This document shows positions 44,162 to 48,115 of a DNA stretch of 64,000 bases, one piece after another. Position numbers and translations under genes: made by a program. The notes below the pieces were generated by a model. It saw only the letters and a list, made by a program, of their open reading frames with translations. It did not search any database and was not told the DNA's origin. Each line of letters starts with the position of its first letter. The stretch's first letter is position 1. The stretch comes from Pirellula staleyi DSM 6068 (GTDB lineage Bacteria > Planctomycetota > Planctomycetia > Pirellulales > Pirellulaceae): the NCBI GenBank assembly GCA_945875845.1, contig CAMCMB010000031.1, positions 1 through 64,000 on the forward strand. The letters run 5' to 3'.

Positions 44162-45619
44162 TTAGCTCGCAGGTAACGACTGCCCTTTTCGATGCCGTTT
44201 GATAGCCTGAACAGCCAGTCGTCTAAGTTCGATTGCGTCGCCGACGTCCGAGGATAGGCTCGCCGAGCGGTTCAGAAGTTGATCCATTTGCTCAGCGGGC
44301 AGCCACAACAAAGTCACATCGGTATCCGCCTTCAAACTGATTGCATCGGTGGACGACCCTGCTGTCAAACTGTCCCCAAAACACTCTCCTGCACTGAGTG
44401 TCGACACGACCACCTCTTGACCTTCGTTGGACTGGGCCAACAGCGAAATCTGGCCACGGAGAATCAACGCCCCACCCTGGAATGGCTTCTTTGGGGAATG
44501 CATGAACTCCCCAGATGTGTACTCGCGTATGTTGAGTTGAGCCAGTTCGGCAGGTTGCAAGGAAGCTTTGAAGCGAGGTTGTTCGTTAAGCCACTGAGAG
44601 GTTGTTTTTTCTGGCTTGCCTGGATTTTCACCAGGACGATATTCCATTTGGATCGGGAACGGGATCGTCAATCCTTCGCGACGGGCCATATACCAAAGTC
44701 TGGTCATCACATCGTCTCGTGTGGCTCCGAGCGTTTCTTGCATTTCGACGGTGAAGATCATCCGATAGAGGATCGAAAAGTCGGAATAGTTGACCGTTCG
44801 AACAAGGGGTTCCGGATCGCTCTTGACCCCAGGGGTACTGCGGAGGACTTCCAAGAGTAACTCTTTGACTTTGCTGGGGGGATCATCGTAGCTGAAGCCC
44901 ATTTCGACGACCTCAGTACGTTCAGGAGTCGGTCGCGAGAGATTGCTGAAGGCTCCTTTGTAGAGCGAGACGTTGGGTACAACCCGAACCTCACGCGTTG
45001 GGGTTTCGATGTGCACCGACCGCCAATTTATCTCGGTTACTTGGCCGATGACACCATCGACGTTCACCCAGTCGCCGACATTCAATGGGCGTTCGAGCAA
45101 CAGCATCAACCCCGAGACGATATTTCCAAGGGGTTCTTGGAGTGCAAGACCGATCACGATCGAACCGAGTCCCAGTGCCGTTAGGGCTCCTTGGATCTCC
45201 ATCCCCCAAACCTTGCTGTAGATGACCATGGCACCAATCGCCACGAGCAATGCCTGAGCCAAATCTCGAAAAAGCTTGGGCACACGCTCACCGATCGAAC
45301 GCGCGCGACCCGTGCCAAAGACGATGCCGTTGACAAACCCTAACAAGGCAAACAGGAGTGCAACCCAAAAGACAGTCTCAATCCAACGCGATATGCTGCT
45401 TTCGCTCGGGAAATTCAAAATCCAGTTGACAAACAGCAGCAATGCAAGTGCCGGTAGAACTAGATTTCTGATGGTTCGCAAGTTTTTTGCAAGAGGATTC
45501 GATCGACGCTCCAGAGAGAGAATCAACTCGTTGAGGATCAGCAATCCAAGAGGAAACCCAATCGCCAGTCCAATGGGTTGCCAGAGAGGCAATTGAGTCA
45601 AATCGCTCAGGTCATTCAT
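44162..45619 (-). CDS. Mechanosensitive (MscS) channel with C-terminal cyclic-nucleotide-binding-like domain
   Basis: A 485-residue membrane channel. The start ATG at 45619 overlaps the stop of the cyclase-like gene (ATGA, 45616-45619); an upstream extension lies inside that gene and is non-coding. Four helices (about residues 15-141) precede the pore helix and MscS core (ALTALGLGSIVIGLALQEP, residues 147-165; GDWVNVDGVIGQVTEI). Residues about 365-470 form a CNB-like beta-roll. Its phosphate-binding cassette is degraded: FGDSLTAGSSTDA replaces GE..R-S/T-A and lacks the arginine. The channel probably gates by tension and perhaps by its partner. Confidence 0.88.
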   Translation of the reverse strand: MNDLSDLTQLPLWQPIGLAIGFPLGLLILNELILSLERRSNPLAKNLRTIRNLVLPALALLLFVNWILNFPSESSISRWIETVFWVALLFALLGFVNGIVFGTGRARSIGERVPKLFRDLAQALLVAIGAMVIYSKVWGMEIQGALTALGLGSIVIGLALQEPLGNIVSGLMLLLERPLNVGDWVNVDGVIGQVTEINWRSVHIETPTREVRVVPNVSLYKGAFSNLSRPTPERTEVVEMGFSYDDPPSKVKELLLEVLRSTPGVKSDPEPLVRTVNYSDFSILYRMIFTVEMQETLGATRDDVMTRLWYMARREGLTIPFPIQMEYRPGENPGKPEKTTSQWLNEQPRFKASLQPAELAQLNIREYTSGEFMHSPKKPFQGGALILRGQISLLAQSNEGQEVVVSTLSAGECFGDSLTAGSSTDAISLKADTDVTLLWLPAEQMDQLLNRSASLSSDVGDAIELRRLAVQAIKRHRKGQSLPAS

Positions 45620-47727
45620 ACCGACACCTGCCAAGCTTCGATGGGTGCTCGTCCCTCGAACTCGAACTGCGTAGGGCCTTCGAGCTGGAATTGTTCTCCG
45701 ATACGGTCTCGTACCGATTGGGTGATTCGGATCGAAGAAGTGCCTTTGTCTACGGCGAGTTTCTTGGCGATGGTCACCGTGTCTCCCCAAAGGTCGTAAA
45801 GGAACTTGCGTCGACCAACGACACCACCGACGATCGGACCGGAGTTGATGCCGATCGCGATGTGGAGTGCCGCCTTAAACTCGCGGAGAGAGTGGGCGAC
45901 GATACGCACGGCTTCTTGAGCAAACTGGGCCATCCTACGCGCATGGTCGGGGCGGCTGACCGACAAACCGCATACGGCCAAGTAGGCGCCACCGATGGTT
46001 TTGACCTTTTCAATCCCAAACTTTTCGGCTGCTTCGTCCAGAGACACAATCAGGTCCCCAAGCACACTCAGCGCTCTGGTTTCCCCAGCTTCGCGGCTGA
46101 ATTCCTCCAAGCCGATAAGCTCGGCGAAGATGACCGACACGTCGGCGAATTGCTGGCTGGCACGCTCATCGCCGTCTCGACGCTGGGCGATGGCCGAGGC
46201 TGGCAAGATGCTCCCGAGGAGTTCTTCGTTTTCTCGGATTTGATGCTCGAGTTTTTCTGTTTGCGACTTGATGCTACGAGCCATGTTGTTGAAAACCGTG
46301 CCGAGCTCCCCAAATTCGTCTTTGGTGGCCACTGGAACTTGGACGTCGGTTTCTCCAGCCCCGAGGCGACGAGCACCCACGATCAACTGCTTGAGCGGTT
46401 TGATCAACCAATTGGAGAACAGTAACGCAAGCAAACTACTGAGCAGCGCCATGGCAGTAGCGGTTATGACCACTTTCTGTCCGAACTCACGGATCGGTCC
46501 GTAAGCCTCATCGGCATCGATTTCGACTAACACACCCCATCGCAATGAGTTGAGTTCGATAGGACCGTAAGCACTGACGACTTTCTTGCGGCGATAATCC
46601 AGCTCTTCCATGATCCCAATTTCACCGGCCAAGGCCGCGCGAGCCGGCTTGGTATCCACAGGAAGCACTCCCAACACACTTCCTTGTCGCTTGATTTGGC
46701 TAACGATAGGTTCTTGAAAATTGATGCTGCGAAGTTCACCGAGAAAGCTCTCGGGGTCTTCCATCATGAACCGATTGAGGCTCCGCATCGTCATGTCTGG
46801 TCCGACCAGATAGCATTCCCCAGTCTCCCCCAAGCCTTCGTCACGCCATTTGCCTCCGCCGGTAATCAAGGCATTGAAACTATCCGCAGGAAACTGGAGC
46901 ACCAGGATACCGATCATGTCGGGCCCATCGAAAATAGGGCTAAGGGCAAAAGCCTCCTGTCTGCCCAGATTTGGGCGGTAGGCTTCAAAGTCGGCGATTT
47001 TGTAGGCGTCCCGGTCTTGCGCAAACTGCAGTTCCTTGGCTTTTCGGGCAAGCTTGGTGTTGCTGTAAGGCCCGTTTTCGAGGCTTGTTGCAAACTCGGT
47101 GGTTTTGGCGTAGCTGTAGACAATATTCATTGTTTCAGGATCGACGAGCATAATATCTTCGAATCCAAATATCTTCACCGCACGCGCAAAACTCGGGTGC
47201 ATCTGCTCATGGACTAATCGGTAGTTGCTCGTGTCGCTTTGAGCCAATTGCAACAGCCCCTTGGATTCATACTCGTTGGGATTCTCAACAATGTAGTGGT
47301 ATTGCAAATAGCGACCTTCAGGGCTCATCGGCAAGTACTGTTCGACGAGCGGTTGGGTATCGATGATCTGCCGCAACTTGGGAAGGAACGTGCCTGTGTA
47401 AAACTCCTTGATTTTTTCGGACTCAGACGGGCTGGTCTGAATCAACTTCAATTCGTTGTAGGCACTCTTAAAAGCTTTCATGCCCTCAATGGCTATGCGG
47501 CTATCGGATATCGATACAACTTGATCTCGGAGCGATTCGAGCCTGATACGCAAAGCCGAGGTCTTGGCAACCTGGATCCCTTTGAGTTGATTCTTGATGC
47601 TTTTTTCAATCGAGGCTTTCCCCGATGTGTAGCCGACCCAAGCCATCGCGCCCAAGGCGCTGAGGGCCACGAGCAGCAAAAGAAGGATCATTTTGGACTG
47701 GATACTCAGCCGGTTAAATCCAAGCAT
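45616..47727 (-). CDS. Membrane receptor with degenerate class III nucleotide cyclase domain
   Basis: A 703-residue sensor. A first membrane helix lies at residues 11-33, an extracellular Cache-like domain at about 40-400, a second helix at about 415-440, HAMP at about 440-495, then a cyclase domain at 520-700. The cyclase consensus is altered at catalytic positions: metal Asp 1 is Glu (FAELIG, E536), metal Asp 2 is Gly (KTIGGAY, G580), and the transition-state Asn and Arg are Thr652 and Lys656 (GDTVTIAKK). Substrate-specifying Lys576 and Asp649 remain. The domain is probably inactive. Coupled by 4 nt to the CNB-channel gene. Confidence 0.9.
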   Translation of the reverse strand: MLGFNRLSIQSKMILLLLLVALSALGAMAWVGYTSGKASIEKSIKNQLKGIQVAKTSALRIRLESLRDQVVSISDSRIAIEGMKAFKSAYNELKLIQTSPSESEKIKEFYTGTFLPKLRQIIDTQPLVEQYLPMSPEGRYLQYHYIVENPNEYESKGLLQLAQSDTSNYRLVHEQMHPSFARAVKIFGFEDIMLVDPETMNIVYSYAKTTEFATSLENGPYSNTKLARKAKELQFAQDRDAYKIADFEAYRPNLGRQEAFALSPIFDGPDMIGILVLQFPADSFNALITGGGKWRDEGLGETGECYLVGPDMTMRSLNRFMMEDPESFLGELRSINFQEPIVSQIKRQGSVLGVLPVDTKPARAALAGEIGIMEELDYRRKKVVSAYGPIELNSLRWGVLVEIDADEAYGPIREFGQKVVITATAMALLSSLLALLFSNWLIKPLKQLIVGARRLGAGETDVQVPVATKDEFGELGTVFNNMARSIKSQTEKLEHQIRENEELLGSILPASAIAQRRDGDERASQQFADVSVIFAELIGLEEFSREAGETRALSVLGDLIVSLDEAAEKFGIEKVKTIGGAYLAVCGLSVSRPDHARRMAQFAQEAVRIVAHSLREFKAALHIAIGINSGPIVGGVVGRRKFLYDLWGDTVTIAKKLAVDKGTSSIRITQSVRDRIGEQFQLEGPTQFEFEGRAPIEAWQVSV

Positions 47728-47759
47728 AGGGGATCGCGATCAAGCGTTTAGATGGGGCC

Positions 47760-47813
47760 TTGAAGTCTACTTGAAGTCTACTTGAAGTCTACTCGAAGTC
47801 TTACTGAAGTCTT
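47760..47813. repeat. 11-bp tandem repeat upstream of the cyclase-like gene
   Basis: About five imperfect units of TTGAAGTCTAC lie between 47760 and 47813, ending 33 bp upstream of the start ATG at 47727 when read on the minus strand. The position in the leader or promoter makes a regulatory effect possible. Confidence 0.8.
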
Positions 47814-48115
47814 CTCAAAGTTGTGCCCAAAGGATACCTTTGCGAAATCCTTTGGCTCGTAAGAATAACTTACCTAACCGATCTTTTTGGTCAAGGATCT
47901 CCGAGTTTACCGAAGCAAACGATTTTTCCAGGAGAGTCGGATCCTCATGTTGCCAGAAGCGACTTCGTGAACCGACCAAGGATCAACAGGCCAGCCACCC
48001 AGAGCAAGGTAAGCAAGCAAGGCGAGCCGTAGCGGATCCAACGCCGCCAATCGCCTTCTACATTTCCGGAATATTGGTCGCCGTTGGAACGTTTCTAATC
48101 TTGCCATTTACTAAA
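47814..48115. other. Intergenic region, nothing recognised
   Basis: No gene or clear repeat is visible between the tandem repeat and the MATE gene end. Long open frames on the plus strand here run antisense into the MATE gene and look like shadows. Confidence 0.4.

Follow-up and report, generated by a model that had tools for sequence, protein, structure and literature searches.

A receptor whose class III cyclase domain looks dead as a maker of cAMP is encoded directly beside an MscS-family channel in the window, the 64,000-nucleotide stretch of Pirellula-like planctomycete DNA that was analysed. In the favoured reading, held as evenly poised between right and wrong, the two genes constitute a signalling unit (the module below) in which the receptor controls the channel without making cAMP, the pseudo-cyclase relaying the signal, perhaps by direct contact. 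A literature search covering titles and abstract beginnings among the matches listed, with subscription papers mostly outside its scope, returned no description of such a receptor/channel pair, and the accessible portions of PMC4284465 and PMC1592074 contain nothing on a receptor/MscS-CNB pair.

Both genes are encoded on the reverse strand, with the features collected in Table 1. The first-pass annotation had taken the ATGA overlap of the two genes as a sign of tightly matched synthesis; the overlap stands for the window, while matched synthesis is applicable solely to its close relatives, since the overlap occurs in 7 of 21 members (the window plus the loci from a contig scan that used peptide patterns from planctomycete rows) and a gap separates the genes in the others, so that what is conserved is the order of the genes, not their overlap. 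Of the tandem 11-bp repeat upstream of the receptor, L050 has only a part and L051-L054 have nothing.

Table 1. Coordinates of the receptor and channel genes and of their parts, numbered along the window
Feature	Position	Strand	Basis
Channel gene, 485 aa: YnaI/MscS-like membrane part and C-terminal CNB domain	44162..45619	-	ORF, Pfam, phmmer, model, Foldseek
Degenerate CNB domain, residues 365-451, D425 in the place of the cassette Arg	44267..44527	-	Pfam PF00027, alignments
MscS beta and C-terminal cage domains, residues 164-318	44666..45130	-	Pfam PF00924, PF21082
Pore-lining helix, residues 142-175, GSIVIGLALQEPLGN, MscS TM3 equivalent	45095..45196	-	model helix, alignment
ATGA overlap, receptor stop TGA inside channel start ATGA, 4 nt	45616..45619	-	translated ORFs
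Receptor gene, 703 aa: N-terminal TM helix, extracytoplasmic dCache-type sensor, second TM, HAMP, linker helix, pseudo-cyclase	45616..47727	-	ORF, Pfam, AlphaFold2
Pseudo-cyclase, class III cyclase fold, residues 524-701	45625..46158	-	Pfam, phmmer, Foldseek
HAMP domain, residues 436-487	46267..46422	-	Pfam PF00672, 50.6 bits
Extracytoplasmic sensor, about residues 33-415, dCache-type by homology	46483..47631	-	relatives' dCache_1 matches

The external sensor had been annotated as a Cache domain, an assignment that draws no Pfam call in the window receptor even at E<=1 and is carried by its relatives L173 (51.7 bits) and L198 (45.7 bits), which pass the dCache_1 cut-off of 45 bits; L191, L192 and L193 score below it. 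The AlphaFold2 model of the receptor has a mean pLDDT of 82. Its cyclase domain matches Guanylate_cyc (PF00211) with 116 bits and, among the best 50 Foldseek matches, superposes on most isolated class III domains with TMt of 0.79-0.86 and on 5o5k, 5o5l and 9bcv with 0.69-0.72. The fold and the adenine-selecting K576 and D645 are thus those of mammalian AC- and Rv1625c-type class III adenylate cyclases, but the catalytic, metal and triphosphate residues are replaced: E536 and G580 occupy the metal-binding positions, both Asp being gone, T652 and K656 those of the transition-state Asn and Arg, and A624 and E691 those of the triphosphate Arg and Lys (for the roles of D, D, N, R, R and K in class III cyclases, see the part of PMC2576301 available). 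The first four of these substitutions had already been listed in the first-pass annotation, whose numbering is correct, and phmmer alignment to AC9 and AC5 puts them on the same catalytic D/D/N/R columns. The possibility that a better alignment would restore the active site is rejected, as repeated, separate alignments return identical columns.

The loss extends through the family, which was read in 45 receptors from planctomycetes, Verrucomicrobia, cyanobacteria and one alphaproteobacterial MAG. D, D, N and R are retained together in only 3 of the 44 readable module cyclase domains and the triphosphate Lys in none, and all 16 cyclase controls, read out of 44 non-module PF00211 matches in module genomes, retain D, D, N and R. 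L184, split into two ORFs that read apart as D, D, N, A, is left out of this count, and L185, L186, L189 and L190, with other outputs after the sensor, are excluded as lying outside the receptor family. The module domains form graded intermediates, from those keeping D, D, N and R, through those that have lost the Arg and those that have lost the metals, to those that have lost nearly all. One cyanobacterial clade, in which degeneration of the cyclase domain is complete, has longer receptors, and both of those examined carry a C-terminal globin, as expected of an integrator rather than an enzyme.

The partner gene is a channel of the MscS superfamily by its beta-domain, pore helix and cage. 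Specifically, MS_channel_2nd and MS_channel_3rd (PF00924, PF21082) match above cut-off, the best phmmer matches are YnaI/MscS (best E 1.2e-20), and the model (mean pLDDT 72) retrieves MscK, YnaI and MscS with Foldseek. Its CNB domain matches cNMP_binding (PF00027) with 38.5 bits against a cut-off of 27.5, and in the motif FGDSLTAGSSTDA D425 stands where aligned cassettes have the phosphate-binding Arg, which bears out the annotated absence of that residue. MscS-superfamily channels with a CNB domain, of which the window channel has the MscS beta and cage domains and the C-terminal CNB, are reportedly known as bCNG channels. MscS-CNB channels outside the module are present in the same phyla, but differ from its channels: they retain the Arg in 26 of 27 cases, as against 0 of 43 readable module channels, and the module alone is defined by pairing with a dCache-HAMP-cyclase receptor. 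These controls comprise all 25 non-module cyanobacterial matches reaching query position 416 (24 with Arg, L295 being the exception) and two planctomycete channels from the family search, both with Arg; the 43 include L256, which lies apart from its partner L178 in the same genome, and leave out L061 (CNB in another frame), L062 (CNB off the contig) and L257, a module-type channel with no receptor in the stretch examined, which also lacks the Arg. The degeneracy annotated on both sides of the window pair is real, and it is shared well outside the window's genome. Counting against the favoured reading, the Arg is also missing from the CNB proteins L270, in the window's own genome, and L262, L268 and L274, in module genomes, which, together with L295, indicates that its loss is not unusual for CNB proteins in general.

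The pattern of residues kept and lost can be read in another way, rather unlikely but deserving weight, in which the cleft of the dead cyclase dimer has kept the ability to bind an adenine compound (ATP, AMP or adenosine) and the pair reports both the external ligand and the internal adenine-nucleotide status to the channel. The metal and triphosphate residues are mostly gone and K/R576 with D645, the pair of residues that selects adenine in class III adenylate cyclases, persists in 37 of 44 module rows, which points to a retained ligand site instead of the favoured reading; the pair is nonetheless missing in the other 7, and the loss of the triphosphate Arg and Lys argues against ATP. A precedent is offered by the trypanosomatid PKA regulatory subunit, a CNB protein that, according to the part of PMC10959531 available, has polar residues in place of the phosphate-binding Arg, as the module channel also lacks it, is independent of cAMP and has switched to nucleosides. 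That protein belongs to a kinase, not a channel, and its ribose-binding Glu is not matched at the corresponding cassette position of the module CNB (L418 in the window), so that a trypanosome-like nucleoside switch of the CNB is rejected for want of its marker.

It is improbable that the channel is still cyclic-nucleotide-gated, binding cNMP without the Arg, with another cyclase supplying the nucleotide and the receptor regulating the supply. The CNB score above the Pfam cut-off, the FGE of the cassette, retained in most cyanobacterial module members, and the presence of other PF00211 domains in 15 of the 17 module genomes searched, with D, D, N and R in every one read, would fit such gating. 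Against it stand the uniform absence of the Arg, the acidic residue (D or E) that takes its place in the planctomycete module rows read and should repel phosphate, and the two remaining genomes, G584 and G585, in which the search found no other PF00211 domain.

Still less credit is given to the degenerate domain as one half of a heterodimeric cyclase with an intact partner, after the manner of mammalian C1/C2, even though half-sets do occur in some cyanobacterial rows, L065 and L067 having N and R without metals, and L169-L172 and L176 having the metals and N without R. The window protein lacks D, D as well as N, R, K, so that neither shared site would be complete in a heterodimer with an active cyclase, and the arrangement is rejected for this protein. 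Moreover, the two other cyclase domains found in the window's genome have D/G and D/T at the substrate-selecting positions as against K/D, and no partner was found in G584 and G585.

The first-pass annotation had proposed a search for the pair in relatives, and conservation extends far beyond the planctomycetes. Of the 45 receptors, 44 are followed immediately, on the same strand, by the channel gene, L182 among them, where a possible 141-aa ORF occupies the gap between the genes; this neighbour analysis excludes the cyclase plus HAMP matches of the phylum search, such as L104, L105 and L109, and the cyclase matches L070-L092 (adjoining channel in 0 of 23), excluded as lacking a channel match. 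Outside the pair, the 33 loci compared hold 75 shared gene clusters, of which three join two locus groups and none more, and the pair joins all the groups, a pattern by which chance neighbourhood is rejected. The receptor and channel trees have their main clades in common, and the module channels form a clade separate from four outside channels used as the outgroup. In samples drawn from larger groups, the pair occurs in 8 of 14 genomes of the window's genus and 1 of 185 others of its family (199 family genomes searched), a patchiness that counts against the favoured reading, and full-type receptors occur in 1 of 392 genomes of the window's phylum (its own), 22 of 339 cyanobacteria, 1 of 337 of the verrucomicrobial phylum and 1 of 299 of the alphaproteobacterial order, the last two being already in the set.

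The dead cyclase domain is under purifying selection, not decaying, as judged from coding sequence. Its dN/dS is 0.088, 0.049 and 0.102 in three close pairs, lower in each than that of the sensor, 18 planctomycete/verrucomicrobial rows all agree at 75 of its 180 positions, and together with HAMP it is the most constrained part of the receptor. In every pair and domain with finite dS the ratio is well below 1, which, with retention of the pair across distant bacteria, leaves hardly any room for neighbouring decayed genes, paired by chance or on the way out as pseudogenes, despite the channel of L061 in two frames and the one receptor, L184/L196, split between two ORFs; pseudogene decay is accordingly rejected.

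Under the favoured reading, in which the receptor acts on the channel without a messenger, an outside ligand would bind the dCache-type sensor and the signal would pass through the second TM helix, HAMP and the linker helix to a dimeric pseudo-cyclase. Serving as a conformational output domain, the pseudo-cyclase would then bias the pore of the channel encoded with it, most likely through contact with the cytoplasmic cage, the degenerate CNB or both. Dimerisation, direct contact, the direction of gating, the ligand and the physiological role are inferred, and the osmotic or ionic switch of the first-pass annotation is conjectural. In a mirror-tree comparison of 38 pairs, the partial correlation of the cyclase domain is highest with the channel pore/cage (0.62) and is -0.10 with its own sensor, a weak, suggestive signal that may merely reflect domain rates. 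Conversely, identity to the window in L055-L060, L063, L066 and L068 is 34-42% for the CNB versus 72-78% for the pore/cage, and such faster divergence of the CNB is not what a tight contact surface predicts. MscS channels are heptamers and class III cyclase domains are dimers; direct coupling would thus need a stoichiometry to fit both, which also counts against direct contact.

As to ancestry, it can be suggested tentatively, at less than even likelihood, that a cyclic-nucleotide circuit collapsed into protein-to-protein signalling, the old cyclase becoming a direct allosteric subunit or partner of the channel as the messenger-making sites, in graded steps, and the messenger-reading sites were lost and the pair was retained. 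Descent from an old cAMP circuit, as first annotated, is plausible from the sequences compared. In its favour, cyanobacteria hold pairs (L242-L245, L255) in which a class III cyclase and an MscS-CNB channel are likewise encoded side by side in the same orientation, in one case overlapping by 4 nt; these differ from the module in that the cyclase D, D, N, R and the CNB Arg look intact when read by eye and in that the sensor is another one (CHASE2 by Pfam in L242, L244 and L255). The three module cyclases with D, D, N and R, L173 among them, also favour it, but their channels, like all those read, lack the Arg, and no member intact on both sides was found among the 45 receptors and their channels, although such a member may exist unseen beyond the sampled genomes.

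Pseudo-enzymes are well known as signalling parts among kinases. Here, a dead cyclase domain is held under strong selection in a family paired with a putative effector across distant bacteria, and its graded intermediates make the turn from a second-messenger circuit to direct signalling testable. If the favoured reading is true, an MscS channel would answer to a dedicated receptor instead of to tension alone.

The receptor and channel genes come from a 7.0 Mb genome (contig 31) that has Pirellula MAGs as its nearest named relatives; as read from the window sequence, they overlap by the 4-nt ATGA that the first-pass annotation had reported. Pfam assigns HAMP and Guanylate_cyc domains to the receptor and an MscS beta domain, an MscS C-terminal domain, and a cNMP_binding domain to the channel. 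For the receptor, AlphaFold2 (mean pLDDT 82, pTM 0.58) predicts a mixed sensor region between two long helices, the first N-terminal and the second continuing into HAMP; a linker helix then leads to a class III cyclase fold, which Foldseek matches to isolated class III domains with TMt values mostly of 0.79-0.86. The channel model, of moderate quality (pLDDT 72, pTM 0.44), has four long helices ahead of its pore helix and beta domain; by sequence and structure comparison, the protein matches MscK, YnaI, and MscS, with a pore helix of sequence GSIVIGLALQEPLGN and both the beta and cage domains there. In the window receptor, where a Cache sensor had been proposed, no such domain is called by Pfam; the sensor is classed as dCache-type by homology, because two receptor relatives, L173 and L198, score above the dCache_1 cut-off. 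Sensor relatives with other outputs occur in planctomycete genomes, namely with a methyl-accepting domain (L206, L207) or PAS/histidine kinase (L205). The direct repeat preceding the receptor is partial at the L050 locus and absent at L051-L054; its 11-bp spacing is reminiscent of OmpR/PhoB-type operators.

Features of the receptor-channel locus in the window
Feature	Position (nt)	Strand	Length	Remark
Receptor gene	45616-47727	-	703 aa	
Channel gene	44162-45619	-	485 aa	directly downstream of the receptor gene
Direct repeat CTTGAAGTCTA	47759-47821		11 bp	about five copies, just upstream of the receptor start

The class III active site is composite, with the metals held by one chain and Asn, Arg, and Lys supplied by the other. 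PMC2576301 assigns the metals to two Asp, the ribose to Asn, the transition state to Arg, the triphosphate to Arg and Lys, and adenine selection to Lys and Asp. Aligned by phmmer with AC9 and AC5, the window receptor has E536 and G580 where C1 carries its two metal aspartates, and T652 and K656 where C2 carries Asn and Arg; these are the substitutions originally read from the sequence. Moreover, A624 and E691 occupy the triphosphate Arg and Lys positions of the alignment, and the adenine-selecting pair (K576, D645) is retained. Since each site draws on both chains, even a heterodimer of the window receptor with any intact cyclase would have two broken sites, which makes cyclase activity of this protein unlikely.

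Across the family, the two metal Asp, Asn, and Arg (D,D,N,R) are all kept in 3 of 44 fully readable receptors (L168, L173, L175), although L175 lacks the triphosphate Arg; the triphosphate Lys is found in 0/44, in an alignment that is uncertain for the most divergent rows. The second Asp and Asn are missing in all 18 planctomycete and verrucomicrobial rows, the first Asp in 17, and Arg in 15. Cyanobacterial rows show a graded loss: metals and Asn kept with Arg gone (L169-L172, L174, L176), first Asp and Arg gone (L164-L167), N,R kept with the metals gone (L065, L067), and nearly all active-site residues gone (L178-L180, L182, L183, L187, L188). As a control, D,D,N,R is present in 16/16 other cyclase domains read (of 44 listed) from module genomes, and all eight residues are retained by the six controls whose substrate-selecting pair is likewise K/D. 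In the receptor tree, the D,D,N,R rows fall inside the family, a topology that needs several independent losses or a regain, and a minimum of three changes fits either. Judged by substitution patterns, the dead cyclase domain is under strong constraint. Specifically, its dN/dS in three close receptor pairs (0.088, 0.049, and 0.102) is in each case below that of the sensor (0.263, 0.176, and 0.119), HAMP and linker give 0.082, 0.131, and 0.056, and 75 of 180 cyclase-domain positions are invariant across the 18 planctomycete/verrucomicrobial rows. For the channel, the closest pair gives 0.197 (membrane and cage) and 0.156 (CNB), and the CNB diverges faster than pore and cage. Five family receptors of cyanobacterial genomes (L192, L194, L195, L198, L199) have an extended C-terminus, with a Pfam globin after the degenerate cyclase in both tested (L192, L198); their loci have in common a third gene, PBP_like_2 by Pfam in the two tested (L194, L198).

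The combination of an MscS channel with a CNB domain is that of the known bCNG channels; the module channels share it but lack the Arg of the phosphate-binding cassette. The window cassette (FGDSLTAGSSTDA) carries D425 at the Arg position of aligned cassettes, in agreement with the first-pass annotation, and the Arg occurs in 0/43 readable module CNBs, being missing even in channels whose paired cyclase keeps D,D,N,R. The position is filled by Asp or Glu in planctomycetes, Glu or His in Verrucomicrobia, Ser in cyanobacteria (Thr in two), and Ser in the L069 channel. Outside the module, the Arg is present in 24/25 cyanobacterial and 2/2 planctomycete MscS-CNB channels; the sole cyanobacterial exception, L295 (G873:C2), has Tyr. 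Loss of the Arg is not rare among CNB proteins at large, since module genomes encode several unrelated ones that also lack it. Other CNB proteins of the window's genome include two with the Arg (L260, G000:C103; L280, G000:C20) and one without (L270, G000:C1). In the channel of L061/L046, the MscS part and the CNB are in different frames, reflecting a sequencing error or a broken gene.

The genome-contig scan yields 43 receptor relatives, 20 of them of window type (L050-L069; L064, L066, and L068 truncated at the contig end). These 20, all MAGs, comprise 13 planctomycetes, 4 Verrucomicrobia, 2 Pseudanabaenaceae cyanobacteria, and 1 Acetobacteraceae, by taxon labels that may be wrong; in each of the 20, the channel comes directly after the receptor, and the other 23 relatives of the scan gave no channel match. 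Of 339 cyanobacterial genomes in a wider search, 24 give matches (22 with family receptors, two of another kind), and a smaller search adds receptor L159. The 45 receptors read (the window's, the 20, L159, and 23 more cyanobacterial, L164-L184, L187, and L188) bear out the predicted conservation of the pair and extend it beyond planctomycetes: in 44, the channel follows directly on the same strand, at gaps of -4 to about 960 nt, the widest (L182) with a possible 141-aa ORF. A 4-nt overlap is found in 7/21 of the window and contig-scan set. The one receptor not directly followed by a channel, L178, comes from a genome with a module-type channel at another site. Module-type channels with no receptor match in the fetched stretch are L256 (G698:C2, the genome of L178) and L257 (G716:C150). 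At L196 (G848:C1), the receptor is broken into two ORFs separated by about 1 kb, and a full-length channel follows; the gap holds an opposite-strand 283-aa ORF, possibly an insertion. Among 33 loci compared, 75 gene clusters are shared outside the pair, of which 3 joined two locus groups and none more. The distribution is patchy (8/14 genomes of the window's genus, 1/185 others of its family, and 1/337 and 1/299 of the verrucomicrobial and alphaproteobacterial groups searched, the last two genomes being already in the set). Because the receptor and channel trees share the same main clades, the pair was probably passed on, and carried from phylum to phylum, as one unit.

The derivation from an old cAMP circuit, as first suggested, finds its strongest support in a contrast with other pairs. 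Five of the 18 outside MscS-CNB channels with surroundings fetched (L242-L245, L255) have a class III cyclase gene as their immediate same-strand neighbour; these channels have the cassette Arg, and the neighbouring cyclases read as D,D,N,R intact, with CHASE2 confirmed by Pfam in all three tested (L242, L244, L255). An intact cyclase-to-channel circuit would be expected to resemble such pairs, whereas the module has losses on both sides. The contrast does not prove ancestry, because no module member read has both sides intact, the Arg being missing even beside D,D,N,R.

Parts, residue losses, pairing, and constraint are established from sequence. In the inferred mechanism, ligand binding to the sensor would shift the linker helix together with HAMP; the pseudo-cyclase dimer would then change shape, and this would bias the channel, most simply through contact with the cage or CNB. 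Cyclase-domain distances track those of the channel pore/cage region (partial r 0.62 across 38 pairs, versus -0.10 with the receptor's own sensor), a weak hint toward such contact; conversely, the dimer/heptamer mismatch and the fast-diverging CNB speak against a simple contact model. Alternatively, and as the main competing explanation, the cyclase cleft may bind an adenine compound, consistent with the adenine-selecting pair kept in 37/44 receptor rows. PMC10959531 describes how, in trypanosome PKA, a CNB that lost the Arg can switch ligand, but the Glu that marks this change there is absent here. Supply of the channel with cAMP by another cyclase is less likely, because the module genomes G584 and G585, whose completeness is not given, show no other PF00211 domain. 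No literature on the receptor/channel pair was found among open-library titles and abstract openings. The module joins a family of MscS-CNB channels in which the cassette Arg is missing to a family of receptors whose cyclase domains lack active-site residues.
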